From the NCBI GenBank assembly GCA_020845575.1, contig JADLFL010000012.1, forward strand, positions 186,001-250,000: DNA of 64,000 nucleotides, read 5' to 3'. Within the stretch, counting starts at the first letter, position 1; every line of letters begins with the position of its first letter. The notes under the pieces are model-generated. The model saw only the letters and a program-made list of their open reading frames with translations. It was not told the DNA's origin and ran no database searches. The DNA is from Acidobacteriota bacterium (lineage in GTDB: Bacteria; Acidobacteriota; Vicinamibacteria; Vicinamibacterales; Vicinamibacteraceae). The position numbers and the translations under genes were made by a program. Below are positions 2-26,800 of this stretch, one piece after another.

Positions 2-2566
2 CTGCTGCGATACGAAGCAGCCAAGCAGGCGCGCGGCGCGCTCGACTTCACGGACCTGCTGACGCGCGCCCGCGACCTGCTGCGCGACAACGCCGGCGTG
101 CGCGTCGATTTCCAGCAGCGCCACCGCCGCTTGTTCGTCGACGAGTTCCAGGACACCGACCCGATCCAGGCCGAGATCCTCCTGCTGCTCGCGGCAGACG
201 ATGTCGGCCAGTCCGACTGGACGCGTGTCACGCCCGTCCCCGGCAAGCTCTTCATCGTCGGCGACCCGAAGCAGGCGATCTACCGCTTCCGCCGCGCAGA
301 TGTCGATACGTACTGGCGCGTGAAGACGCAGTTGCTGGCCACGGGCGGGCACGCATGTCAGTTGCGCACGTGCTTCCGCAGCGTGCCGGCGCTGCAGCGA
401 GCCGTGAATCACGTGTTCGCGCAGGTGATGCAGGGAGGTGTCGACGCCTCGCAGGCCGACTACGTGGCGCTCGAACCCGTTCGCGATGATGCCGTCGGGC
501 AGCCGGCTCTCGTGGCGCTGCCGGTGCCGCGACCGTATGGCTCGAAGTACATCAGTCACGACGCGATCGAGGCATCACTGCCTGACGCGACGGGCGCGTT
601 CATCGAGTGGCTGATCCAGGAGAGCGGTTGGACGGTGTCCGAACGCGCACCGGGCGGTGGAGAGCGGCGCGTACCGATTCAGGCGCGGCACATCGCGATC
701 CTCTTCCGCCGCTTCACGAGTTGGGGCGTCGACGTCACGCGTCCGTACGTCGAGGCGCTGGAGTCGCGGCAGGTGCCGCACCTGCTCGTGGGCGGCCGCA
801 GCTTCCACGAACGCGAAGAGGTGGACGCGCTGCAGGCGGCGCTCTGCGCGATCGAGTGGCCGGATGATGAGTTGTCGGTGTACGCGACGTTGCGCGGCGG
901 CTTCTTCGCGTTCCCCGACCACGAACTGCTCGCCTATCGCGACGCGCATCACGGTCGCCTCGACCCGATGGCCCCGGCGACCGCTCTGCCTTCTGATTCC
1001 GATCCGTCCGAGTCCGGTAGGGGCGACGCATGCGTGGCCCCTGCGACGGGAGGAGACTCTGCTCGTTCGACGGAGGGCATCGATGATGCCCTGCGACTGC
1101 TGCGATCGCTGAACCGCGAGCGCAATCGCGTTCCCGTGCAGGACACGCTGCAGACGCTGCTGCGCGCGACGCGGGCGCAGGCAGGACTCGCGCTGAGACC
1201 GGGAGGAGAACAGGCGCTGGCGAACGTGCTGCACGTGGTCGAGCTCGCGCGGCAGTATGAAGCGAGGGAAGGCGCGTCGTTCCGCGGCTTCGTGCAGCAG
1301 TTGCTCGACAGGTCGTATACCGAGGCGGCCGAGACGCCGATCCTCGAAGAGGGCAGCGACGGCGTGCGGGTGATGACGGTGCACAAGGCCAAGGGCCTCG
1401 AATTCCCCGTCGTGATCCTGGCCGATATCACGTGCCGGCTGGCGTCCGATCGACCCACGCGCGCACTCGTGCCGTCGCGTGGAGCGTGCGTGCAGACCAT
1501 CGCGGGCTGCACGCCCATCGAACTCGTGGAATTGCGCGACGTGGAAGTGGCGCGCGATCGCGCCGAAGGGCACAGGCTTGCGTACGTCGCGGCGACGCGC
1601 GCGCGCGACCTGCTGGTGATCCCCGGCGTGGGCGACCAACCGTACCCGAATCCGCGACAGGGCGAGAAGTGGATCGACGTGATGAATCGCGCGATCTATC
1701 CCGACATGCCCTGGCCGGCGCCGCAGGACGCGATCGGCTGTCCGCCGTTCGGGCGCGACACCGCGCTCGAACGATCCGACGATCCCATCGCGGCGCACGC
1801 CACGCCCATCAGGCCAGGCCGCTACACGCTCGGCGAGCCAGGCGCCACCTTCGACGTCACCTGGTGGGATCCGTCGCGTCTGCACCTCGACGCGGTGATG
1901 GCCTTCGGTGAGCGGCAGCGCACGCTCATCGACAAGGCCGCTCCGGACGAGCGCGTTCGGGAGGGGCTCGAGGCGGTGGACTACTGGACGCAATTGCACG
2001 AGCGTCGGCTCGAACACGGCCGGCAGCCGTCGATGCGCGTCGCACGCGTGACGCAGGCAGCGAAAGAGAGCGAGCCGTCCGACGTGGACGTCGACGTCGT
2101 GTCAGTGGGATCGACGGCCCCTCGCAGCGGCGGACGCCTGTTCGGCGCCCTCGTTCACGAAGTGCTCGCCATCGTCGCGCTCGATGCGTCGGAGGCGGAC
2201 ATCGGGGCGGCCGTCGCGTTCAAGGCCCGAGTGCTTGGTGCGCATGGCGTCAATCACGCCACCGTCGCCGCCGTGGTCCGCGACACGCTGCGTCATCCGC
2301 TCGTCGACGCCGCTGCTCGCGCGCACCGCGCCGGACGCTGCCGCCGCGAGTCGGCCGTCACGCTGCGGCTCGACGATGGGACGTGGGTGGAGGGGCAGTT
2401 CGACCTGGCGTTCGAAGACGAGACGGGCTGGACGGTGGTGGACTTCAAGACCGATGCAGACCTCGACGCGTCGTTCGATGTGTACCGTCGGCAGGTAGGT
2501 CTCTACGCGCGCGCGATTGCCACGGCCACGGGCCGCCCGGCCCGCGCCGTCCTGATGCGTGTGTGA
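2..2566 (+). CDS. AddA/RecB-like ATP-dependent helicase-nuclease (5' truncated)
   Basis: C-terminal ~854 residues of a UvrD/RecB-family helicase with a nuclease domain, which resects double-strand ends for recombinational repair. The frame is open from base 2, so the N-terminus and Walker A lie upstream of the window. Seen: DFTDLL; Walker B VDEFQDTDP (nt ~140); motif III GDPKQAIYRFRR (260-295); motif V VMTVHKAKGLEFP (~1370-1408); motif VI AYVAATRARDLL (~1580-1615); and a C-terminal PD-(D/E)XK core with QFDLAFED, VVDFKTD and YRRQVGLYARA (~2395-2500). The nuclease block argues for AddA/RecB rather than plain UvrD. An AddB-like partner would be upstream and is not visible. Residues ~339-348 are encoded by an inserted palindrome (1017-1044) and look like a surface-loop insertion. 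Confidence 0.88.
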   Translation: MLRYEAAKQARGALDFTDLLTRARDLLRDNAGVRVDFQQRHRRLFVDEFQDTDPIQAEILLLLAADDVGQSDWTRVTPVPGKLFIVGDPKQAIYRFRRADVDTYWRVKTQLLATGGHACQLRTCFRSVPALQRAVNHVFAQVMQGGVDASQADYVALEPVRDDAVGQPALVALPVPRPYGSKYISHDAIEASLPDATGAFIEWLIQESGWTVSERAPGGGERRVPIQARHIAILFRRFTSWGVDVTRPYVEALESRQVPHLLVGGRSFHEREEVDALQAALCAIEWPDDELSVYATLRGGFFAFPDHELLAYRDAHHGRLDPMAPATALPSDSDPSESGRGDACVAPATGGDSARSTEGIDDALRLLRSLNRERNRVPVQDTLQTLLRATRAQAGLALRPGGEQALANVLHVVELARQYEAREGASFRGFVQQLLDRSYTEAAETPILEEGSDGVRVMTVHKAKGLEFPVVILADITCRLASDRPTRALVPSRGACVQTIAGCTPIELVELRDVEVARDRAEGHRLAYVAATRARDLLVIPGVGDQPYPNPRQGEKWIDVMNRAIYPDMPWPAPQDAIGCPPFGRDTALERSDDPIAAHATPIRPGRYTLGEPGATFDVTWWDPSRLHLDAVMAFGERQRTLIDKAAPDERVREGLEAVDYWTQLHERRLEHGRQPSMRVARVTQAAKESEPSDVDVDVVSVGSTAPRSGGRLFGALVHEVLAIVALDASEADIGAAVAFKARVLGAHGVNHATVAAVVRDTLRHPLVDAAARAHRAGRCRRESAVTLRLDDGTWVEGQFDLAFEDETGWTVVDFKTDADLDASFDVYRRQVGLYARAIATATGRPARAVLMRV
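1017..1044. repeat. REP-like palindrome inserted in frame in the addA-like gene
   Basis: The arms AGGGGC (1019-1024) and GCCCCT (1037-1042) flank a perfect inner palindrome ACGCATGCGT (1026-1035). It is read as GRGDACVAP in the helicase-nuclease, between conserved helicase blocks, inside a Ser/Asp/Gly-rich stretch unlike the surrounding sequence. This is best explained as a mobile palindromic unit tolerated in a loop. Confidence 0.6.
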
Positions 2567-2568
2567 GG

Positions 2569-2592
2569 GGGCCGGCTCGCCGAGCCCGGCCC
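2569..2592. terminator. Hairpin between convergent genes (REP family C)
   Basis: GGGCCGGCTC (2569-2578), a 3-nt loop, and GAGCCCGGCCC (2582-2592) form a 10-bp stem with one bulged base. It sits between the stop of the addA-like gene (2566) and that of the convergent DsbA-like gene (2602), so it could terminate both transcripts. There is no U-tract. The core CGGCTC-N-CCGAGCCCG recurs inside lhr (27900-27921). Confidence 0.5.
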
Positions 2593-2601
2593 ACCCGGAG
2601 G

Positions 2602-3651
2602 TCACGGCCGGTCGCCGCGCAGTTCTTCGTCGATCAACGTGACGAACGCCTCGATCGGCTGCGCTCCGCGAATTTCTCGTCCGTTCACGAAGAACCCGGG
2701 CGTGCTGTTGAGGCCCAGCGCCTCACCCTGAGCGATGTCCGTCTGGATCGCCACGCGGGCTTCGGAGCCCGCAAGGCATGCCGCGAACGCCTGCGCGTCG
2801 AGGCGGGCGGCCGACGCGAAGCGGGTCAGCGCCGCTTCGCTCGAATCGTTGCTCGTGTCGGCGTACACCGCGTCGTGGAACTCCCAGAACTTGCCCTGCC
2901 GCGCGGCGCACCACGACGCTTCCGACACGCGCCGCGCCTGCGGGTGAAGGCCATCGAGCGGGAGGTGCTTGTAGATCAGGCGCACCTTCCCCGGGTACTT
3001 GTCGAGCAGCGCCATCAGCGTCGGCTGCACACGACGGCAGAACGGGCAGTGGAAGTCCGAGTACTCGACGATGGTGACGGGGGCGGTTGCGGTGCCGCGG
3101 ATGGGCGCGTCGGTGACGTCCACGTCGACGCGATGGACGGGTGGGGGCGTGAGGTGTACTTCGACCTTCGCGCTCGTCCGCAGACCGTCCACGACGGCCG
3201 CGCGCTGGGTGCTGACCTTCTGTTCCTGGAGGAACTCGCGAATCTGCGGGCGAAGCTGCGTCACGTCGCCGCGAATGCGCGCGCGGTTGGCCTCGATGAA
3301 CGCGTCGATTTCCGCGTCGGTGACGGCCGTCACCTTGCTGCGGATCTCCGTCTGTTCGAAGACCTCGAACGCCTGTCCGCGACGTGTGGCTTCCGCTTCG
3401 AGCAGCCGCCGCTCGATGAGCGCCTCCACCTGTTGCTTGCGCAGCTCGTAGACCTGCTCCTCGAGTCGCGAGATCTCGAGGCCGGCCGCCTTGCGGACGT
3501 CGTCCTCCGTGATCGGGGTGCCGTTGACGGTGGCCAGGACCGTCGGTGAGCCGGGGGTCGTGCGTGAGGTCGCAGGTTGCGCCTCCGACGAGGGCGCGGC
3601 GGTACAGCCGCCGAGCAGGAACACCGCCATCAACATCCACGTGGAACGCAT
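2602..3651 (-). CDS. DsbA-like thioredoxin-fold lipoprotein with SurA-like N-terminal region
   Basis: A 349-residue envelope protein. Residues 1-16 are a lipoprotein signal with lipobox LLGGC (Cys16). Residues ~36-150 resemble the SurA/parvulin N-terminal chaperone region (ATVNGTPITEDDV, then a Glu/Arg-rich helical stretch). Residues ~187-345 are a DsbA/Thioredoxin_4 domain with active site CPFC (202-205) and the cis-Pro loop STPGFFVNG. It probably handles disulfide exchange on exported proteins, with the N-terminal region binding clients or its own chain (inference). The start at 3651 is chosen because AGGAAG lies 9 nt upstream and the lipoprotein signal begins there; longer readings add a nonsense leader. 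It is the last gene of a three-gene minus-strand operon, 28 nt after the TraB/GumN-like gene. Confidence 0.85.
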   Translation of the reverse strand: MRSTWMLMAVFLLGGCTAAPSSEAQPATSRTTPGSPTVLATVNGTPITEDDVRKAAGLEISRLEEQVYELRKQQVEALIERRLLEAEATRRGQAFEVFEQTEIRSKVTAVTDAEIDAFIEANRARIRGDVTQLRPQIREFLQEQKVSTQRAAVVDGLRTSAKVEVHLTPPPVHRVDVDVTDAPIRGTATAPVTIVEYSDFHCPFCRRVQPTLMALLDKYPGKVRLIYKHLPLDGLHPQARRVSEASWCAARQGKFWEFHDAVYADTSNDSSEAALTRFASAARLDAQAFAACLAGSEARVAIQTDIAQGEALGLNSTPGFFVNGREIRGAQPIEAFVTLIDEELRGDRP

Positions 3652-3679
3652 GCGAGCTTTCTTCCTGTGTGCCGGACGG

Positions 3680-4633
3680 TCAGGGCCGTGCGCGGCGCGA
3701 ATCGTATCCGCGGGCCTGCAGGAGCTGCGGAAGGTTGTCGGGGCCGACCAGGTGCAGGGCCCCGACGGCAACGAAGATGATCTCATGCGGCGACGCGGTG
3801 TGCAGCGCGTCGATCCGGTCGGCCATGCGCCTGTTGCGCTTGATCAGGATTTCCTGCTCGACCTTGCGCGAGAGCGCCGGATCGCCAACGCCCTGGCTCA
3901 TCGCCGTCGCCAGCTTCTCGTCATCTCCGGCAAGGTACCACTCCACCAGCGTGGCTCCGGGGATGGCAAGACCGCTCGCGCCGCCTTCGCGCAGCGCGTC
4001 GTCCATGAGCGTGGTCTGCTCCTCGAGCGTGAAGGCCTCGAAGGCGCCTACCTGCTCCGCCACGGTCTCGAGACCGCCGGCCTTCTTGCCCGCGGCCACG
4101 GCGTCGGCGTAGAGCTGGGCGTCGAGCGCCAGCCGTCCGGCCATCAGGTCGGGCAGGTAGTCGAGCGTGGCGAGCTGTGCAAGCGCGGCCCACGGCTTGA
4201 GGCGGTCGAGCAAGCCGGCGACCAGCGGGGCGACCTGCGGGGCCACGGGCGTGAGCGCGGAGCGCACGCGCGCATCGAGCCGCGCGAACCGTTCCTCGCC
4301 GAGGATGGTGCGCAGCCGCTGGCCCTCGGGCAGCATGAGCGCGGCTGCGAGTTCGGCCTGCTGCACTGTGTCGAACGCCACTTCGGTGACCACGCGATCG
4401 GACGCGTCGAACGCCTCGCGTACGGCCGGTGGCAGGGCGAGGACGCGCGCGTCAGGGACGTGGATGGTGCCGAAGAGCCAGAGTTGCTGGCCGTCGATGC
4501 GGACGTCCCACAGCAGCGGCGCGCGCACCGGGGCCGTGCTGGCCGCGGGACTCTCGCCCCACACAAGCAGCGCCATGAGCGCCACCGCCAGCGCCGCACT
4601 CATCGTCTGTCGTCCGCGCATCGAGGTTCTCAT
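3680..4633 (-). CDS. TraB/GumN family secreted protein
   Basis: A 317-residue protein with an N-terminal signal peptide (~1-30, hydrophobic AALAVALMALLVW). The TraB/GumN hallmark LWLFGTIHV (~51-59) is followed by a conserved Glu in VVTEVAF, and the C-terminus carries FVAVGALHLVGPDNL. These GxxH blocks are proposed metal-binding motifs of a family whose biochemical role is poorly defined; some members are described as metalloproteases. The start at 4633 is supported by a 4-nt ATGA overlap with the stop of the flavoprotein gene, implying translational coupling. It lies in the operon flavoprotein - TraB/GumN - DsbA-like lipoprotein. The exact function cannot be read from the sequence. Confidence 0.85.
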   Translation of the reverse strand: MRTSMRGRQTMSAALAVALMALLVWGESPAASTAPVRAPLLWDVRIDGQQLWLFGTIHVPDARVLALPPAVREAFDASDRVVTEVAFDTVQQAELAAALMLPEGQRLRTILGEERFARLDARVRSALTPVAPQVAPLVAGLLDRLKPWAALAQLATLDYLPDLMAGRLALDAQLYADAVAAGKKAGGLETVAEQVGAFEAFTLEEQTTLMDDALREGGASGLAIPGATLVEWYLAGDDEKLATAMSQGVGDPALSRKVEQEILIKRNRRMADRIDALHTASPHEIIFVAVGALHLVGPDNLPQLLQARGYDSRRARP

Positions 4634-18215: not shown

Positions 18216-19361
18216 ATGGCTCTGACACGACGCGGATTCGTCCGCCGCATGGGACAGGTCACCGCGACGGTGAGCGGTGCAGCCCTCTCGGCCCGGGGCT
18301 TCGAGGCGATGACCGCCGCGCACGCCGCAGGACAGGACCGTCCGCAGATTCCGCCGGGCATGATTCGCCTCGGCAGCAATGAGAGTCCGTACGGTCCTGG
18401 CCCGCGCGTGGTCGCCGCCGTCGAACGCGCGCTGCTGGATGACGGGAACCGTTACTCGCGATCGCCGAGCCTCCTCACGGGACGCGTGGCGGCGATGCAG
18501 GGCATCTCCGCCGCGTCGGTACTCGTGGCGGCAGGATCGGGCGATCTCCTGAGGGCGTCGGTGTTCGCGTGGGTCACGGCCGAACGTCCGCTCGTGGCTG
18601 CGACGCCGACGTTCGAGACGCCCGTGCGTACGGCAGGCGCGCTGCGCATGCCCGTGCGCATGGTGCCGCTGACGCCGGCGCTCACGATCGATCTCGACCG
18701 CATGGCGGAACAGGGCCACGGTGCCGGGCTCGTCTACGTCTGCAACCCGGACAACCCCACGGGCACCTTTCATCCGAAGACCGCCATCGTCTCGTTCATC
18801 GAACGCATCGCGGCGGCATCGCCCGAGACGGTGGTGATGATCGATGAGGCGTACTTCGACTGCGCCGACGATCCGACGTACGGCTCGGTGGCGTCGCTCG
18901 CCGCCGAGCGACGCAACCTCGTCGTGCTGCGAACGTTCTCGAAGATCCACGGTCTGGCCGGCATGCGCATCGGGTACGCCATCGGTCATCCGGACACGCT
19001 CGAACGCCTTCGCCTGTGCGCCGGCAGCGGCACGCTCGCCTGCGCGTCCGTCGCGGCCGCCATCGCGTCGCTCGACGACACGGTGTACTTCGCGCGGCAG
19101 CAGGCGCTCAATCGCGAAGCGCGTGCGCGCCTCGTGAAGGCGTTCACGGAGATCGGCTACCCGCCCGTGCCGTCGCAGGCCAACTTCGTGATGGTCGACG
19201 TGCGCCGCGACGTCCGCGACTTCGGCGCCGCCTGCCGCGAGCGCGGCGTCCTCATCGGCCGCCCGTTCCCGCCACTGGCCACGCAGGCCCGCATCTCCTT
19301 CGGTACGCCCGACGAGATGACCACCGCCATCGCCGCCTTCAGAGCCATCCTGGTTTCCTGA
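18216..19361 (+). CDS. Tat-exported class I/II aminotransferase (HisC-like)
   Basis: A 381-residue PLP enzyme of fold type I resembling histidinol-phosphate aminotransferase. The N-terminus TRRGFVRRMGQVTATVSGAALSA is a twin-arginine signal, not found on biosynthetic HisC. Seen in order: RLGSNESPYGP, VAAGSGDLL, VYVCNPDNPTGT (PLP phosphate/ring region), VVMIDEAYFD (Asp to the pyridine N), and the Schiff-base Lys243 in RTFSKIHGLAGMRIGY. All catalytic residues are present. Tat export would carry folded holoenzyme, implying periplasmic amino-acid or amine chemistry (inference). Monocistronic; a REP-like hairpin follows the stop. Confidence 0.88.
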   Translation: MALTRRGFVRRMGQVTATVSGAALSARGFEAMTAAHAAGQDRPQIPPGMIRLGSNESPYGPGPRVVAAVERALLDDGNRYSRSPSLLTGRVAAMQGISAASVLVAAGSGDLLRASVFAWVTAERPLVAATPTFETPVRTAGALRMPVRMVPLTPALTIDLDRMAEQGHGAGLVYVCNPDNPTGTFHPKTAIVSFIERIAAASPETVVMIDEAYFDCADDPTYGSVASLAAERRNLVVLRTFSKIHGLAGMRIGYAIGHPDTLERLRLCAGSGTLACASVAAAIASLDDTVYFARQQALNREARARLVKAFTEIGYPPVPSQANFVMVDVRRDVRDFGAACRERGVLIGRPFPPLATQARISFGTPDEMTTAIAAFRAILVS

Positions 19362-19370
19362 GGTGTAGCC

Positions 19371-19387
19371 GCCGGATTTCATCCGGC
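19371..19387. repeat. REP-like hairpin, family B
   Basis: A 7-bp perfect stem GCCGGAT / ATCCGGC with loop TTC, 9 nt after the aminotransferase stop. The identical element in inverse orientation follows the gene ending at 62044 (62047-62063), so it is a repeated unit and may also end transcription here, ahead of the riboswitch promoter. Confidence 0.6.
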
Positions 19388-19428
19388 TGACGGTGTCGCG
19401 CACCAGACGCGCATGACACGCTCGGCTG

Positions 19429-19457
19429 TTGAGGCGATCAGCGCCGACAGCTAGAGT
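19429..19457 (+). promoter_or_regulatory. Sigma70-like promoter of the SAM-riboswitch operon
   Basis: TTGAGG (-35, 19429-19434), a 17-nt spacer, and TAGAGT (-10, 19452-19457). The predicted transcription start is near 19464, within two bases of the first paired base of the riboswitch (19466). This fit supports both calls. Confidence 0.6.
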
Positions 19458-19461
19458 GCCA

Positions 19462-19560
19462 GGAGACATCCCGAGTGGCCCGTGGACGACACGGGTCCGG
19501 CAACCTGCGACGACCACGCAAGGTGCCCGCGCGCTCACGCGCGGATGTGGCCGGTGGAGC
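19462..19560 (+). promoter_or_regulatory. SAM-I/SAM-IV-type riboswitch
   Basis: The leader carries the conserved core of the SAM-I/SAM-IV clan. P1: ACATCC (19466-19471) with GGATGT (19543-19548). Directly inside P1 is GAGTG, then P2 CCCGTG/CACGGG (19479-19484, 19490-19495). The joining motif TCCGGCAACC (19496-19505) leads to P3 TGCG/CGCA (19506-19509, 19517-19520), followed by AAGGTGCCC and a hairpin GCGCG-CTCA-CGCGC (19529-19542). The P3 loop CCAC (19514-19517) can pair with GTGG downstream of P1 (19554-19557), as in SAM-IV pseudoknots. That GTGG lies in the likely ribosome-binding site GGTGGAG of the next gene, so SAM binding would block translation (inference). The first operon's fourth gene encodes a SAM synthetase, matching the ligand. 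Confidence 0.83.
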
Positions 19561-19571
19561 CCGGCAACCAA

Positions 19572-20969
19572 ATGGTTACCATTCGCGCACACGCGCGGCT
19601 GGCGGCGCTCGGCGTGTACGGGTTCGACACGTGCGAGCCCGTCATCATGGCCGCGCTCGTCACCGGGGATCCGCTCCTGCTCATCGGGCGATCCGGCACA
19701 GGCAAGACGTATCTCCTCAACACGCTCAGCGAGGCCCTCGGGCTCGAGCACCGCCACTACAACGCCAGCCTGATCGCGTTCGACGATCTCGTCGGGTTCC
19801 CGTATCCGGACGACGACCGTGCGGGCATCACGTTCCTGCAGACGCCCGCCACCGTGTGGGGCGCCGAGTCCGTCCTGATCGACGAGATCAGCCGGTGCAG
19901 GCCCGAACACCAGAACCGGCTCTTCTCGCTCATCCACGAGCGCCGCCTGCAGGGGATCGCCCTCCCGACGCTGCGCTATCGGTGGGCGGCGATGAATCCG
20001 TGCCCGAGCGATCGCGACACCCACGAGGACTACACGGGTTCCGAGCCGCTCGACCCCGCGCTTGCAGATCGCTTCGCGCTCTTCGTGCGCGCGGCGGAGT
20101 GGAGCGAACTGAACCCCGACGAACGCCTGCGCCTGGCCGATGCCGGTGGCGAAGGGCGCATCGCGCCGGCAGACGACGATCTGCGCGATCGAGTGACGGC
20201 ATGGCGCGCGACGTTCGAACACACGCTTGCGCACGGCTCGTCGTTCGCGCAGGCGTACGCGTCGGCGGCGGCGACGGCGCTGAACGCGGGTCGTATCCGC
20301 GTCTCGCCGCGGCGCGTGCGGTTGCTCGCGCGAAGCCTCGTCGCCGCGTCCATCGTCGCCGGCGGGGGGACGAGTGACCTGTTCAAGCTGGTGCTCGGGT
20401 GCAGCCTGCCCCACGCGACGTGGGGAGAGGACCCGGATGGCGCGCGAGTGGCGGCCGCGCACCAGAGTGCGTGGGACGTCGCCCGGCAGTCGCGGCCCGC
20501 CTGGGTCCACGAGTTCATGGCGGCGGGCTCGATCGCCGAGAAGCTGCGCCTGCTGCTCGCGCATTGCACCGATCCCGACGAAGGGACGCAGGTGGTCTCC
20601 GAGTGGCTGGCCAACGCGACGACGCACCGCGCGGCGGCATTCGCCTTCGCTGTCTATCCGGCAGCCGTGGCCGGCCGCCTGCCGATCGGCGCGGACGCCG
20701 TCGAGGATCTCGGCCGGATCGCCGGGCGGATCCTCGCCGTCGACGCCGAACTGCACTGGCAGGAGCGTCTGTCGCAGTCGGGCACCACGCATCCGCAACT
20801 CGCGCGCCTCGGGAAGGTCCTCGCGACCCTGAAGGGCGCCCGCAGGGAGCGAGCGCACCAGTTCTTTTCCTGGTGCACCACGTCCGACACTGCAGTCGGA
20901 TCGCCAGCGGCGCTGGAGGCCGACATCGACGCCTGCGTGCGCCAACTCGAAGGGATCCGCACGTCATGA
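19572..20969 (+). CDS. MoxR-type AAA+ ATPase of a SAM-riboswitch operon
   Basis: A 465-residue AAA+ ATPase. Walker A GRSGTGKT (39-46), Walker B VLIDEI (101-106), sensor-1 Asn142 (RWAAMNPCPSD) and a putative Arg finger Arg167 (LADRF) are intact. MoxR ATPases act as chaperones that remodel or activate targets through a VWA-domain partner, encoded two genes downstream. The start ATG 19572 is chosen because upstream in-frame codons lie inside the riboswitch; GGTGGAG (19553-19559) is the likely ribosome site. The ATG is itself in a short hairpin (AACCA-AA-TGGTT, 19566-19577). Its stop overlaps the next start (ATGA). C-terminal residues ~260-465 are helical and unassigned. Confidence 0.88.
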   Translation: MVTIRAHARLAALGVYGFDTCEPVIMAALVTGDPLLLIGRSGTGKTYLLNTLSEALGLEHRHYNASLIAFDDLVGFPYPDDDRAGITFLQTPATVWGAESVLIDEISRCRPEHQNRLFSLIHERRLQGIALPTLRYRWAAMNPCPSDRDTHEDYTGSEPLDPALADRFALFVRAAEWSELNPDERLRLADAGGEGRIAPADDDLRDRVTAWRATFEHTLAHGSSFAQAYASAAATALNAGRIRVSPRRVRLLARSLVAASIVAGGGTSDLFKLVLGCSLPHATWGEDPDGARVAAAHQSAWDVARQSRPAWVHEFMAAGSIAEKLRLLLAHCTDPDEGTQVVSEWLANATTHRAAAFAFAVYPAAVAGRLPIGADAVEDLGRIAGRILAVDAELHWQERLSQSGTTHPQLARLGKVLATLKGARRERAHQFFSWCTTSDTAVGSPAALEADIDACVRQLEGIRTS

Positions 20970-21400
20970 CGGTGTGGGCCAACACGGGCGGCCCGTGCAG
21001 CCGGACGCGCGTGGAGCACATTCGACGGACGCTGCTCAATCGCACCGACGGTCCGATCCGCATGCCGCGTGTGCTGCGCGTGGGCCTGGACCATCGAGCA
21101 AGCGACGATGTCGCCGACATCGTGTGGCGAACGCTTGCCGCTGCCGGCTTCGCGACGCCTGACCATCTGCGCGCGGCGTTCACCGTACCAGCGAAGCGAC
21201 TCTTGTGCAGGCGGTTCGTGCCTCGCGCGCGGGAGTTGCCGTGCCTCGACGATGCCCCGCTGGCCGTGCTGGAGCAGGCGTTGCTGCTCGGCCTGTGTAC
21301 CGCGCACCTCTTCGATCCGTCGCGTCCCGTCGTCTGGACGACGGCCAGCCTCTCGAGACAGCTCGAGCTCTTCGAGCCGGAAGGGTTCTACGTGTCATGA
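20966..21400 (+). CDS. Unknown 144-aa protein between MoxR and VWA genes
   Basis: No family recognised. The protein is basic and has four Cys residues (near positions 11, 79, 92 and 111) and a helical middle (ADIVWRTLAAAGFATPDHLRAA). The C-terminus is WTTASLSRQLELFEPEGFYVS. No signal peptide or membrane segment. It overlaps its neighbours at both ends by 4 nt (ATGA each side), so it is made in step with the MoxR ATPase and the DUF2201 protein. That suggests a stoichiometric subunit or adaptor of that complex (inference from context only). Confidence 0.82.
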   Translation: MTVWANTGGPCSRTRVEHIRRTLLNRTDGPIRMPRVLRVGLDHRASDDVADIVWRTLAAAGFATPDHLRAAFTVPAKRLLCRRFVPRARELPCLDDAPLAVLEQALLLGLCTAHLFDPSRPVVWTTASLSRQLELFEPEGFYVS

Positions 21401-22707
21401 CCGACGCACGCATTCGCGCCATCCTCCAGGAGCTCATCGACGAGAACCCGCTGGCGTGCCGCGCGATCCTGCGCGTGCTCCACGTCGAGTTCACGCGCGA
21501 CGTGCCGACGCTTGCCGTGACGTGCGAGACGCTGCCGCGCCTGCGCATCAACGCCGCGTTCGTCGCCGCGCACTGCCGCACCGACGCGCACGTGAAAGCC
21601 GTGATCCTGCACGAGCTGCTGCACGTGCTGCTGCGGCACACGCAAACGCGGCTCGGTGTCACGCCCGCGCGGCATCTCGCGTGTGATGCCGTGATCAACG
21701 CCATCATCGCTCGGCAGTGCGGCGAGGCGTACTCGTCCATGATGTCGCGCTACTACGCGACTGAAACGGGGCTGGCGAGGCTGCTGCGCAGGAGGCGCGC
21801 GCGCGAGGTCCTGCGCACCGAGCGGCACGGAACACGCATCGACCTCACATCGCTGTGGGACGGGCTCTACGCGGGAACACTGGTGGCCGACGACATCGAG
21901 GCCCTGGCGCACGACATCGAGCCGCACGTGCCCGCCGTTGCGAGACGGCTGATTGGCAACCACGCGGAACTCGACGAGGCGCTGCCGTCGGTACTCGAGA
22001 CAGCCGTGGACGCCGCATTCCGGCAGATGAACGGCGCGGGGATCTGGCGATCGCCGCGGGGGCGAGGCTCGTCGGCGATCGTCTTCGAGCAGGTGTTCGC
22101 GTCGAGCGACGCGCCGATCGAGCAGTGGCGGCGCGCCACGCTCGCCGTGTTCAGGCGGCACATCCAGCCGGACGCGCGCGGTGCCGGACGGGAGGCACGC
22201 GAGGCGGCGTACACGCTGCCCGTGCTGAGTCCGTCAGACAGGCGCGCCTTCCTGCGTGCACGGTGGTCGCCGTTGCTGCCCGACGCGTGCTGGGCGACCG
22301 AGCGCCCGCATCGCACCGGCAGCACGCAGGTGTACCTCGACGTCAGCGGGTCGATGTGGGCGGAGATGCCGGAGATCGTGGCGCTCATCGCGCGGCTGCG
22401 GCGATACGTGCGCCAGCCGCTGTGGGCGTTCAGCGACATCGTCGCACCCGCGATCGTCGAGCACGGACACCTGAAGGCCGAGACGTCGGGTGGCACGAGC
22501 CTGACGTGCGTGTTGCGGCACGTAGCGGACACGCGTCCAGCGGCTGCCGTGATTGTCACGGACGGGTACGTCGAGCCCCTCAACTCGAAGCTGGTGGCCG
22601 CCGCGAGTCGCTCGCGGCTCCACGTCATCGTGACGAGAGACGGCGATCCCGCTCTGGTGCGACGGGCCGGCCTGCCCTGGTCGCAACTCGATCGGATGCC
22701 GTCGTGA
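21397..22707 (+). CDS. DUF2201-like metallopeptidase-VWA protein
   Basis: A 436-residue protein joining two domains typical of DUF2201 proteins. The N-terminal half has a zincin motif HELLH (72-76; Glu73 catalytic) followed by ARHLACDAVINAII, whose His/Asp could supply the third metal ligand. The C-terminal third is a VWA domain with an intact MIDAS: DVSGS (315-319), a Thr in GGTSL (~366) and Asp in VTDGYV (~388). Known DUF2201 proteins pair with MoxR ATPases; the VWA is the expected docking site for the ATPase two genes upstream. The start overlaps the preceding stop (ATGA), and its stop overlaps the metK-like start (GTGA). Proteolytic activity is plausible but unproven for this family. Confidence 0.87.
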   Translation: MTDARIRAILQELIDENPLACRAILRVLHVEFTRDVPTLAVTCETLPRLRINAAFVAAHCRTDAHVKAVILHELLHVLLRHTQTRLGVTPARHLACDAVINAIIARQCGEAYSSMMSRYYATETGLARLLRRRRAREVLRTERHGTRIDLTSLWDGLYAGTLVADDIEALAHDIEPHVPAVARRLIGNHAELDEALPSVLETAVDAAFRQMNGAGIWRSPRGRGSSAIVFEQVFASSDAPIEQWRRATLAVFRRHIQPDARGAGREAREAAYTLPVLSPSDRRAFLRARWSPLLPDACWATERPHRTGSTQVYLDVSGSMWAEMPEIVALIARLRRYVRQPLWAFSDIVAPAIVEHGHLKAETSGGTSLTCVLRHVADTRPAAAVIVTDGYVEPLNSKLVAAASRSRLHVIVTRDGDPALVRRAGLPWSQLDRMPS

Positions 22708-23849
22708 TTCGCGTCTGCGAGGCCGTACTGCCCGGACATCCCGACAAGTTCTGCGATCAGATCGCCGATGCGATCGTCGCGGCCGCGTCGGCGGTCGAGC
22801 CCGATGCCTATTGCCAGACCGAGGTGTGTGCGTGGTCCAACGAAGTGTTCCTGACCGGTGGCATCGCCACGCGCGCACCATTCACTGCCGACCTCGGCGC
22901 GCTCGTGCGACGCGTCGCGCGCGAGGTGGGGTATTGCGGCGGCAACTGGATCGACGGCGACCGCTATCGTGTGACAGACACGATCTGCCGCGTCGTGGCC
23001 GATCCCACGCGCTGGACGCGGCACGTGAACGACCAGTCGATCGTCGTCGGGCATGCGTGGGGCGATGCGCGGACGCACTACCTGCCGCCGGAAACGTTTC
23101 TCGCGCACGCGTTCCGTCGCGCGCTCACCGACGCGTGTCGCGATGGCGAACTGCGGGGCGAGGGACCGGATGGCAAGCTCCTGGTGCGCATGCGTCTCGA
23201 GGGCGGGGATTCGCGCGCGCGATCCGCCGTTCGACTTCGTCTCGAACACGTGCTCGTCACCCTCCAGCATCGGGAAGAGACGGAGGTGCTCGACCTGGCG
23301 GAGCGCGTGGCGGCTTGCCTCGGTCTGGCGTACGCGCAACTGGCTGATGGCGACGGCCGCTGGTGCGAACCGTGGTCGACGGTGGACCTGGACGTGAACC
23401 CGAACGGCCCGCTGCTCAACGGCGGGAGCGACGGAGACAACGGCCAGACGGGACGAAAGCTGGTGATGGACTACTACGGCCCGCACGTCCCGATCGGCGG
23501 CGGGGCGCTGTCGGGCAAGCACCTCACGCACATCGACCGCCTGGGCGCCTGTGCGGCACGTCACGCCGCCGTGCGCGCGGTTGCCGGCGGGGCAGGCGAG
23601 TGCACCATCCGCGTCGCGTACGCACCGAACGTCGCGGTGCCGCTGGAGGTCACATGCGAAATGTCGCCGCGCGGCCCACGCGCTCCTCGCGAGTTCTTCG
23701 ACTTCGACGCGATGGCGGATCGTTACGCATCGGCAGAGATCGACTCATCACTGGCCCGCGGCGACCACTTTTTCGACCTGTCGCGCCCCTGGAACCGTGA
23801 CGAGCCGCAGCGTCTCGTCGTCACGCGGTCGCACTGCTCCGGTCAGTGA
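22704..23849 (+). CDS. Divergent S-adenosylmethionine synthetase (MetK-like)
   Basis: A 381-residue protein, the usual MetK length (~385), converting methionine and ATP to SAM. Conserved: GHPDK (11-15, methionine/ATP His and Asp), the GDQG-loop equivalent NDQS (109-112) keeping the Asp, DGKLLV Lys, GGSDGDNGQTGRK (240-252) keeping Asp and Arg-Lys, and GGGALSGKH (265-273). Departures from E. coli MetK: GDQG to NDQS, GGGAFSGKD to GGGALSGKH, and the second active-site Lys (269 in E. coli) is His276. Most catalytic residues remain, so activity is likely but kinetics or substrate may differ. The GTG start overlaps the VWA gene stop (GTGA). Fourth gene of a SAM-riboswitch operon, so probably feedback-controlled. 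An inverted repeat GAGGCGC/GCGCCTC (23875-23898) follows the stop. Confidence 0.87.
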   Translation: MIRVCEAVLPGHPDKFCDQIADAIVAAASAVEPDAYCQTEVCAWSNEVFLTGGIATRAPFTADLGALVRRVAREVGYCGGNWIDGDRYRVTDTICRVVADPTRWTRHVNDQSIVVGHAWGDARTHYLPPETFLAHAFRRALTDACRDGELRGEGPDGKLLVRMRLEGGDSRARSAVRLRLEHVLVTLQHREETEVLDLAERVAACLGLAYAQLADGDGRWCEPWSTVDLDVNPNGPLLNGGSDGDNGQTGRKLVMDYYGPHVPIGGGALSGKHLTHIDRLGACAARHAAVRAVAGGAGECTIRVAYAPNVAVPLEVTCEMSPRGPRAPREFFDFDAMADRYASAEIDSSLARGDHFFDLSRPWNRDEPQRLVVTRSHCSGQ

Positions 23850-23882
23850 GCTACTTCTGGCTCGACGAATGCGTGAGGCGCG

Positions 23883-26800
23883 CTACCTCGTGCGCCTCGC
23901 TGCCACGCTCCCCCGACGCGGTAGATGTGCCACGACCCCGACAGCCGCCGATGGGCCCGCTGATGGGGCGCGCCGCTGCAGGCCTTGCGATGTCGCGGTG
24001 AAGCCTGCCGCCTCGAGATGCGGACGCACCTGGGAGTCGAGCGCCGGGCCGCCGTTGATCTCCGCGAGCACCACGGCCGCGGATCGTTCATCGGGATCCG
24101 TACCCGTCATGAGGAGGGCACTCGTCAGCGCCGTCGCGTGCCTGGTGCGATCGGGATCGTGCTCGGGCAGCCACACCAGCAACGACCGGAGACCGCGCGC
24201 GAGCCACGCGGCGAGATGGCCGTCCACGAGCACGACGCGCGCGCCGACACTGCGCGTGGGGCCGCGTCCACTCGCGCCGGGCGGCGGTTCGGGCCATTTC
24301 ACGAGGGCACCGTACGGATTGGCGGGATCGGTCGCCGACAGCACCGCGACCTCCGGTTCCTCCGGCGGTGTCCTGAGCGCCCGCAGGGCGTCCACGGCCG
24401 CCGGCATCGCGAACTGCATGGCGCCCACGCCGTTCACGAAGTACCCGCGCCTGATACGCCCGCTCTCCTCCAGCGTGCGGAAGACGTCGTGGATCGCCGT
24501 GAATCCACCCGGCAGGCTCTCTGCCGATGCCGCCTCGCGCGTGACGATACCGTAACGGGTGAGGAGTTGCTGACCTGTCGCCGCGCTCCACGTCGTGGGT
24601 GTTGTCATCAGGTCGCGGCGTTCCGCCACCAGCGCCCATCGGCCCTCGGCGGCGGGCGGCGCGGACCGTCGCGAGCGGAACGTCCGCGGCGCTCGACTGC
24701 GGCGTTCCCTGACGGCAGCACCGACGTGCGCGCGCAGCGACTGCAGCGTGTCGTTGGTGATGAACCCGCGCCAGACCAGCGACCAGATCGCGTCGACGGT
24801 CTCCTGCGGGAATCCGCCGCCTGCCGCGTCGTGGAGTGCGCCGAAGAACTGCGCGCCGCGCGTACCGAGTGTCTCGAGAATCGCGTCCTCGCGCGGCGAC
24901 AGGTCGGTGCGATCGGGCGGCTGGATGGCCCCGCGCCAGAGCGCCCCCATGTGATCGGCGAGGAACAGCGCGACGCGGCCGTCGCGCTCACCGAGCGGTT
25001 CGACGCCCGTCCACACGACCTCCCCCGCCGCGATCAGGGCGTCGAGGTCGGAGGGCTGGTAGCGCTGCAACCGCGCGGGCAGGATCTCGCGCTCGAGGAT
25101 CGACGCCGCCAACGGCAGTCCCTGCAGCGATTCGACGATGTCGAGGAGGGCGTCGAGACCGCGTCGCCGATGCGTGACGCCCTGCCACTGTGCGAGCAGG
25201 CGACCGAGCACGGGCAGTTCGACGGGCTCGACGTCGGATCGCAGCTTCGCGAGCGACCGTCGTCGCAGCGACGTCAGTACGCCGCTGTCGCACCATTCGC
25301 GATGCTGCCCGCCGGGACGGAACGCGCCTTCGAGGAGGCGCCCTTCCGCGTGCAGAGACGAGAGCGCGAGTTCGGCGGTGGAGCGGCCCAGCCCGAATCG
25401 CGCCGCCACCTCGTCGGTGGTGAACGGCCCGTGCGTGCGCGCGAAGCGCGACACGAGATCGCGGAGCGCGTGCGGCTGTGGAGTCAGCAGCGACTCTGGG
25501 ACGCCCGGTGGCAGTGGCACGCCGAGCGCGTCGCGATAGCGAGCCGCGTCCTCGATGGCCACGTAGCGCTGCTCGCCGGCGATCGACAGCACGAGCGCCC
25601 GTCGCGCCCGCACGAGCCGGTCCCCCGCCGACGTCGGATGCGCTCCTTCCGATGCCGTATGGAGCGAACGGGCTTCAGCCCGTTCGTCAGCGTTGCGCGC
25701 GTGCAGTTCGTCGGCGCTCAGATCGCCGATGCGCAGCAGCAGATCGTGCACGCCATCCAGCGATCGCGCGCGATAGTCGGGCGCCAGGCACTGCAACTGC
25801 GCTTCGAGCGCGGCAAGTGCGTCGGTGTCGAGCAGATCGCGCAGTTCCGCCGATCCCAGCAACGTCTGGAGCTGGACCTGATCGATCGTGAGCGCCTGCG
25901 CGCGACGCTCGGCCAGCGGCGCGTCGCCCTCGTAGAGGTAGTTCGCGACGTAACCGAACAGGAGCGACGCGGCGAACGGCGAGGGCGTCGGCGTGTCTGC
26001 GGTGGCCACGCGGATGCGCCGTGCCTGCACGGCCTGCAGCGTTTCGACGAGCGCCGGCATGTCGAACACGTCGCGCAGGCACTCGCGATACGCCTCGAGG
26101 ATGATGGGGAAGGATCCGTAACGCGCGGCAACGGCCAGCAGATCCTGCGCGCGCTTGCGCTGTTGCCAGAGTGGGGCGCGACGGCCAGGACGCCTGCGCG
26201 GCAGGAGCAACGCACGCCCGGCGCACTCGCGGAAGCGCGCGGCGAAGAGCGACGTCGAGCCAAGCTGCCTCACGACGACGTCCTCGATCTCGTCTGGCGC
26301 AGGGATCAGCCACATCGGATCCGGAGGGTCGTCGGTCTCCGGAAAGCGCACAGCGAACCCATCGTCTGCCCACCACGTCTCGACGTCGAGCCCGAGCCTC
26401 TCGCGCAAGCGGGCGGTGACGGCCATCGCCCATGGCGCGAGCACGCGCGCGCCGAGTGGCGACAGCAGACAGAGCCGCCATTCGCCCATCTCGTCGCGGA
26501 CGCGCTCGATCACGATCGTGCGATCGTCGGGCACCGCGCCCGTGGCCTCTTCCTGCTCCGCGAGGTATTGCAGCAGGTTGGCCGCCGCGAGCGCGTCGAG
26601 GTCGTGCCGCTCTTCGAGTCGCGTGCGCGCCGCGTCAGGCGTGTCGTGCCGCAACTGCCGGACGAGCGCACCGATCTCGCGGCCGAATTCGAGCGGCCGC
26701 CCGGGCGCATCGCCCTTCCAGAACGGCATCTTGCCGGGCTGTCCTGGCGCCGGCGACACCATGACGCGGTCGTGCGAGATGTCCTCGATGCGCCACGACG

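Follow-up and report, generated by a model that had tools for sequence, protein, structure and literature searches.

A four-gene cassette joining a MoxR-like AAA+/VWA module to a divergent MetK-like protein behind SAM riboswitches of three classes

The stretch of DNA described here (the window; 64 kb, G000:C12:186001-250000) belongs to an acidobacterial genome of 4.57 Mb in 78 contigs. It contains a cassette of four genes encoding a MoxR-like AAA+ ATPase, a small protein, a protein that combines an HExxH motif with a von Willebrand factor A (VWA) domain, and a relative of the S-adenosylmethionine (SAM) synthetase MetK (Table 1). All four genes lie on the same strand, and neighbouring genes overlap by 4 nt (ATGA, ATGA and GTGA), as an earlier reading made from the letters of the DNA (the sequence-only reading) had described. 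The aptamer of the SAM-I/IV type that the same reading had placed in the operon leader is borne out by a covariance match above the gathering cut-off, and this match is the only Rfam match in the whole window. The promoter it had also placed there was not recovered: a sigma-70 scan of the locus finds none. Separate transcription of the metK gene, which would have broken up the proposed unit, finds no support either, as there is no terminator-like site within 19300-24100, the interior of the cassette included, and the start of metK and the stop of the VWA gene share 4 nt in 23 of the 28 loci found by the genome search described below.

Table 1. Features of the cassette and its leader (window coordinates)
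Feature	Position	Strand	Evidence
SAM-I/IV riboswitch aptamer (RF01725), operon leader	19461..19581	+	covariance match 50.8 bits, gathering 41.1, E 2.2e-5
Aptamer 3' hairpin GCCGG/CCGGC	19550..19565	+	sequence and fold; hairpin backed by Rfam alignment
MoxR-like AAA+ ATPase, 465 aa	19572..20969	+	AAA_5 5.3e-9; motifs invariant in 26 relatives
144-aa protein, no family	20966..21400	+	no Pfam/NCBIfam match; alignment of 29
HExxH (DUF2201_N) + VWA protein, 436 aa	21397..22707	+	PF13203 28.8 bits (1.2e-6), cut-off 23.2; invariant motifs
MetK-like protein, 381 aa	22704..23849	+	three SAM-synthetase domains above cut-off; residue audit

With the MetK-like protein as the query, a search of 84,980 species genomes returned 28 loci, 27 of them at 47-60% identity and one through a 20-residue match at a contig end. 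The same four genes are found in all 28, in the same order and on the same strand. Two more cassettes (G097 and G451) come from genomes around that of the window, so that 31 distinct loci, the window included, have an identical order; conservation of the order, on which the sequence-only reading had made its proposal depend, holds in every full cassette found. According to the submitters' titles the hosts are Elusimicrobia, Riflebacteria, Kiritimatiellae, Acidobacteria, Myxococcota, Gammaproteobacteria, Caulobacteraceae, Akkermansiaceae, Bacteroidia and others; every source is a metagenome assembly, and at least one of the titles is open to doubt (L021 is titled Acidimicrobiia, and the same match occurs in G063 of the window's order). 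The cassette is held by 8 of 396 genomes of the phylum; matches occur in 7 of 100 genomes drawn around the window's genome, mostly of the same order, and in none of 4 congeners.

Apart from the four genes themselves, no neighbour is common to more than a few loci, and the identical order in 31 loci with unrelated flanks rules out chance neighbours. The sequences show the four proteins to co-evolve: their distance matrices correlate pairwise with r of 0.84-0.97, a value as high being reached in 0 of 999 permutations. Cargo of phages or plasmids was rejected as an explanation, since phage, plasmid and viral collections hold no copy above 45% identity and their matches are other MetKs at about 30-34% identity. 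Because the order is fixed, the flanks vary, the distances correlate and such copies are absent from these collections, the cassette can be described as a chromosomal unit that is inherited whole and has moved between lineages. It is a self-contained, horizontally spread four-gene operon. At one locus (L006) a tyrosine integrase and a tRNA lie beside it. At another (L030, 6696-8741) the VWA gene is split by a frame break and metK is cut short, which marks either a decaying copy or an assembly error. Relatives of MetK are also encoded in 119 phage records, 84 of them from Streptococcus phages; the best reach about 30-34% identity to the query and are unrelated to the cassette.

The leader is sequenced in 27 cassettes (L008, L015, L018 and L020 are truncated), and 19 of the 27 have at least one SAM riboswitch. 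Three classes are represented, SAM-I (RF00162), SAM-I/IV (RF01725) and SAM-II (RF00521), as scored on the coding strand against the curated Rfam cut-offs. SAM-I/IV is above the cut-off in the leaders of the window, L016, L017, L022 (two) and L023, SAM-I in L021, L030 (two) and G451, and SAM-II in L014. Matches that fall below the cut-off yet lie in the leader belong to SAM-I in L006, L011, L012 and L081, to SAM-I/IV in L010, L024 and L031, and to SAM-II in L013 (two) and L029. A covariance model built here from the SAM-II copies of the cassettes (A6, R1) adds a second copy in L014, which is a training sequence, and two further copies in L067, which are independent matches and one of which abuts moxR. 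Borderline matches are present in the leaders of L025 and L026.

Eight leaders carry two or three aptamers. Mixed-class tandems, SAM-II followed by SAM-I/IV, occur in L016 and L017; tandems of a single class are SAM-II with SAM-II (L013, L014 and L067), SAM-I pairs and SAM-I/IV pairs. The L016 tandem lies at 2302-2377 and 2504-2653 and that of L017 at 863-940 and 977-1079, the latter with a terminator-like hairpin between the two aptamers; the SAM-II copy is below the Rfam cut-off in both. The aptamer ends within about 10 nt of the moxR start, or overlaps it, in the window, L006, L011, L012, L013, L021, L023, L029, L030 and L081, and about half of the loci have a downstream aptamer abutting the start; where such a copy is of the SAM-II kind, it may belong to either SAM-II or the related SAM-V class. 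The upstream SAM-II aptamer is followed by a terminator-like hairpin in L014 (z -3.7), L017 (z -4.5) and L067 (z -3.1).

This placement is not due to chance. Throughout about 330 kb of loci, at the curated cut-offs, all SAM-class matches lie upstream of the cassette and on its strand, with the exception of the two extra SAM-class loci of the window's own genome, and whole host genomes hold only 0-3 matches per class. In the cassette tree, SAM-I, SAM-II and no-match leaders occur among the close relatives L011, L012, L014, L021 and L032. The riboswitch class thus does not follow the tree, and SAM control has therefore repeatedly been gained or exchanged. The recruitment of three SAM riboswitch classes is convergent regulation, and the SAM-controlled unit that the sequence-only reading had proposed for one locus is a recurrent property of the 31 cassettes, the binding of SAM and the switching being predicted from the covariance matches. 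Convergence of three classes on one cassette is a strong sign of a role tied to SAM metabolism. Downstream of the L008 cassette (3336-3412), a SAM-II-like element scoring 53.5 bits with the model built here directly precedes an open reading frame of 231 amino acids, possibly a further SAM-regulated gene.

In the window, the riboswitch match extends beyond the start codon of moxR. The 3' hairpin of the aptamer, GCCGG-UGGAGC-CCGGC, holds the likely Shine-Dalgarno sequence GGAG (19556-19559) in its loop, 12 nt before the moxR ATG. The UGG of this loop (19555-19557) could pair with CCA (19514-19516) of the P3 loop to form a candidate pseudoknot, and the structure stabilised by SAM would then mask the ribosome-binding site. 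As the aptamer overlaps the moxR start and contains the likely ribosome-binding site, control in the window is probably translational. The genome of the window also has a canonical MetK (C44), the gene of which lies downstream of a SAM-I/IV riboswitch of its own. A third SAM-I/IV match in this genome (L003 1501-1631, G000:C37:45287-45417; 41.6 against a cut-off of 41.1) is found some 330 nt upstream of a gene for a DEAD-box RNA helicase and is either a chance match or an unusual target.

The MetK-like protein contains the N, M and C domains of SAM synthetases above the Pfam cut-offs (56.0, 29.6 and 69.6 bits), and its 150.9 bits are far below the cut-off of the metK equivalog TIGR01034 (309.4 bits), in agreement with the divergent MetK of the sequence-only reading. 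Residues were compared, in the numbering of human MAT2A, between 26 cassette proteins and 41 other MetKs, phage ones included. All the ATP, triphosphate and metal residues tested (E23, H29, D31, K32, E57, D134, K181, D258, R264, K265, K285 and D291) are kept in 26 of 26 cassette proteins. The methionine side is lost: E70 is replaced in 25 of the 26 and S114 and I117 in every one, K289 has become H and I322 has become P throughout. Each of these five residues is kept in 40-41 of the 41 other MetKs. Glu70 and Asp258 of MAT2A bind the amino group of methionine and Gln113 one of its oxygens, the Ser114Ala mutant has 2.5% of the activity left, and a patient mutation of Lys289 results in low SAM with the phosphatase activity unaffected (PMC6850014). 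The methyl-pocket role of I117 comes partly from engineering work (PMC11240257). The gating loop of the cassette proteins is several residues shorter. The methyl pocket of the methionine site is lined by I117 and I322.

These replacements suggest something other than an ordinary SAM synthetase: activation of ATP seems to be kept and recognition of methionine not. The sequence-only reading had left open a plain SAM synthetase, which is weakened because the methionine site is replaced, and an enzyme for a SAM-related product; a SAM-related or other product is favoured. A canonical MetK is also present in 13 of 16 sampled host genomes, and in L006 and L028 its gene adjoins the cassette. In L028 (1025-3491) the canonical metK and another AAA+ ATPase gene directly precede the cassette, the latter gene overlapping moxR by 4 nt, and an adenosylcobalamin riboswitch is found 1.5 kb downstream.

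A tree of MetK proteins groups those of the cassettes with a second lineage (L101 and L102), with a support of 1.0 and to the exclusion of all others. The second lineage adjoins a DUF2201 gene and, on a contig of sufficient length (L101), also a MoxR-like gene; operons of MoxR, small protein, DUF2201 and MetK-like genes from this lineage are seen in L101 (2564-6598), L102 and L096. Its proteins have in common with those of the cassettes the loss of E70 (here to R), the change of I322 to P and the short loop, and differ from them in keeping K289 and in changing R264 to K. No riboswitch was detected in the L101 leader.

The first gene product matches AAA_5 (36.6 bits, cut-off 22) and falls short of AAA_3 (PF07726, MoxR proper; 24.5 against 27 bits). 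Its sequence thus places it closer to AAA_5, on the side of CbbQ, NorQ and midasin; of the MoxR ATPase that the sequence-only reading had named, the AAA+ protein with a VWA partner stands and the assignment to MoxR proper does not. Its Walker A (GRSGTGKT), Walker B (VLIDE), sensor-1 (MNP) and arginine (LADRF) motifs are invariant in 26 relatives, and the PDB sequence search with its alignment matched only midasin. The adjoining VWA protein has an intact HELLH motif and an intact metal ion-dependent adhesion site (MIDAS; DVSGS/T/D), with H72, E73 and H76 invariant in relatives, so that the motifs expected of an AAA+/VWA pair are invariant in both partners. The VWA half is below the PF09967 cut-off (20.9 against 26.4 bits), and nothing was matched in the PDB sequence search with its alignment. 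Its AlphaFold model, which has a moderate mean predicted local distance difference test score (pLDDT) of 74, gives three matches below E 0.001, one of them NorD of a NorQD complex. The 144-aa protein has a conserved C-terminal part, LGLCT..LYDP.RPVLWT..SL.R.LELF...GFYA, and its model (pLDDT 81) has no PDB fold match at E < 0.001. Both the DUF2201 assignment of the VWA protein and the lack of a known family for the small protein had been called correctly from the sequence.

From these findings a possible course of events can be outlined. When SAM is plentiful, the riboswitch would keep the operon off, and a fall in SAM would release it. In the window the off-switching would act on translation, the aptamer masking the moxR ribosome-binding site, and in some relatives the upstream SAM-II aptamer and its terminator hairpin would add a second lock. 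The AAA+ and HExxH-VWA proteins would then assemble into a machine that remodels proteins in the manner of NorQ/NorD or CbbQ/CbbO, and the 144-aa protein would be its adaptor or a substrate. NorQD drives metal insertion through twisting and stretching of the NorD linker (PMC13036017), and CbbQO-type proteins are activators of Rubisco (PMC4660213). The MetK-like enzyme would activate ATP at C5' with loss of the triphosphate, as MetK does, and pass the adenosyl group on, not to free methionine but to a different acceptor, which is the most economical reading of its residues. The acceptor may possibly be a macromolecule, given the short gating loop and the loss of the residues that read the ends of a free amino acid. 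By analogy, the machine would most likely activate, load or condition the MetK-like enzyme or its acceptor. A probability of roughly 0.45 is given to the reading in which low SAM induces a remodelling machine like NorQD or CbbQO along with an adenosyltransferase that derives from MetK and uses an acceptor other than methionine.

Several other explanations share part of this evidence. The cassette might encode an emergency SAM synthetase with its own activase, making SAM from methionine with different kinetics (for example, without product inhibition), while the AAA+ and VWA proteins activate it as CbbQO does Rubisco. SAM-riboswitch control is expected of such an isoenzyme, the window genome's canonical metK is itself downstream of such a riboswitch, a canonical metK adjoins two of the cassettes, and the catalytic ATP, triphosphate and metal residues are all kept. 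The joint loss, in essentially all members, of five residues that are near-invariant in other MetKs, and a score so far under the equivalog cut-off, nevertheless make this explanation rather unlikely. The MetK-like protein might instead be a regulatory subunit that mixes with canonical MetK, an enzyme whose active sites lie between subunits, and that acts jointly with the AAA+ and VWA proteins to remodel or regulate the SAM synthesis of the host. Nearly all sampled hosts have a canonical MetK, and the protein retains the MetK fold together with the residues on either face of the shared active site. Its catalytic ATP and triphosphate residues are, however, fully conserved, which points rather to catalysis by the protein itself, and a cassette that moves between distant hosts would need to pair with very different MetKs. 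Such a subunit is improbable. In a methionine salvage pathway, the unfoldase and HExxH peptidase would digest proteins under SAM shortage and the MetK-like enzyme would turn the freed methionine into SAM. The invariant HExxH site and the control by SAM would suit it, but the peptidase activity of DUF2201_N is putative and the methionine site is precisely the part that is lost, so that this pathway is very unlikely.

A conflict or defence system might be triggered when an invader depletes SAM, for example through a phage SAM hydrolase. The unit is patchy in its distribution and horizontally spread, it has an integrase and a tRNA beside it in L006, and MoxR-VWA modules are known in conflict systems (PMC7159879). 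Against this, PADLOC gives only a weak mad8 AAA match, the 60 flanking proteins contain only scattered single defence matches, the gene set is constant with no variable effector domain, and the cassette was not found in phage or plasmid collections. A known anti-phage system was rejected, there being no PADLOC support and no defence-island context, and a defence role of the SAM-triggered kind has little probability.

Transfer of the adenosyl group to a non-methionine acceptor by an enzyme served by the AAA+/VWA machine has to face several observations that weigh against it. A MetK paralogue under a SAM riboswitch is most simply read as a SAM synthetase, and several changes made together in the pocket could be compensated. 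Seven of the 26 cassette proteins have Q at the column aligned with Q113, the L008 protein keeps E70, and D258, which also contacts the methionine amino group, is among the kept residues. The second lineage, with its K289 and its altered R264, may have a chemistry different from that of the cassettes. Six leaders (L007, L009, L019, L027, L028 and L032) have no detectable SAM riboswitch. The MetK-like protein as the client of the machine is an analogy, and another client would fit too; the sequence-only reading had suggested that the machine may mature or turn over SAM-dependent proteins. The wider proposal, that two lineages of MetK-fold adenosyltransferases move the 5'-adenosyl group of ATP to a non-methionine acceptor in association with an AAA+/VWA/HExxH machine induced by SAM depletion through convergent riboswitches, is put forward a little more tentatively than the reading for the cassette.

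Searches of the open-licence PMC literature found no description joining MoxR, a SAM synthetase and vWA, no SAM riboswitch paired with MoxR or von Willebrand domains, and, for DUF2201/COG3864, no description of the cassette; the sequence-only reading had known of none. Each component belongs to a known kind, and what appears to be new is their combination, the re-specified MetK lineage and the convergence of the riboswitches. If the proposal is true, a MetK-fold enzyme with a different acceptor would join the few enzymes known to attack ATP at C5' and release its triphosphate, and a MoxR/VWA machine would gain a companion enzyme open to purification and assay. As the riboswitches supply the inducing condition, low SAM, the long-standing question of the function of DUF2201/MoxR pairs becomes directly testable.

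The cassette can be compared with several known systems. In NorQ/NorD, which inserts FeB into nitric oxide reductase, and in the Rubisco activase CbbQ/CbbO, a MoxR-class AAA+ protein likewise adjoins a VWA partner with a MIDAS and serves a dedicated enzyme. Unlike these, the cassette has a VWA partner with an HExxH DUF2201_N domain, a third protein of 144 amino acids and a MetK-like companion under a SAM riboswitch. MoxR/DUF2201 pairs of the COG3864 type have the same pair of domains; the classical pair that lies just upstream of the L027 cassette (836-4013; 115 bits for PF13203) lacks both the small protein and a dedicated MetK partner, and it scores far higher for PF09967 in its VWA half. 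Similar pairs occur also in phages: in the lytic Delftia phage RG-2014, gene 33 encodes an AAA protein and gene 36, close by, a DUF2201_N/VWA protein (PMC5735904). The MoxR-vWA ternary conflict systems (VMAP, iSTAND, FtsH, beta-propeller; PMC7159879) resemble the cassette in having MoxR, vWA and a third protein; the cassette differs in scoring below the cut-off for bpMoxR (17.4 < 27 bits) and in having no VMAP, iSTAND, FtsH, propeller or variable effectors, and the paper on these systems makes no mention of DUF2201 or MetK.

The leaders have a counterpart in the SAM-II/SAM-V tandem of Pelagibacter, where two SAM aptamers within one leader have been described as controlling both transcription and translation (PMC11508383); the tandems of the cassettes are instead SAM-II with SAM-I/IV, SAM-II with SAM-II, or same-class pairs of SAM-I and of SAM-I/IV. 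With canonical MetK (human MAT2A and E. coli MetK) the cassette protein has in common the three-domain fold and the ATP, triphosphate and metal residues, and it differs in the replacement of E70, S114, I117, K289 and I322, in its shorter gating loop and in its place below the TIGR01034 cut-off.

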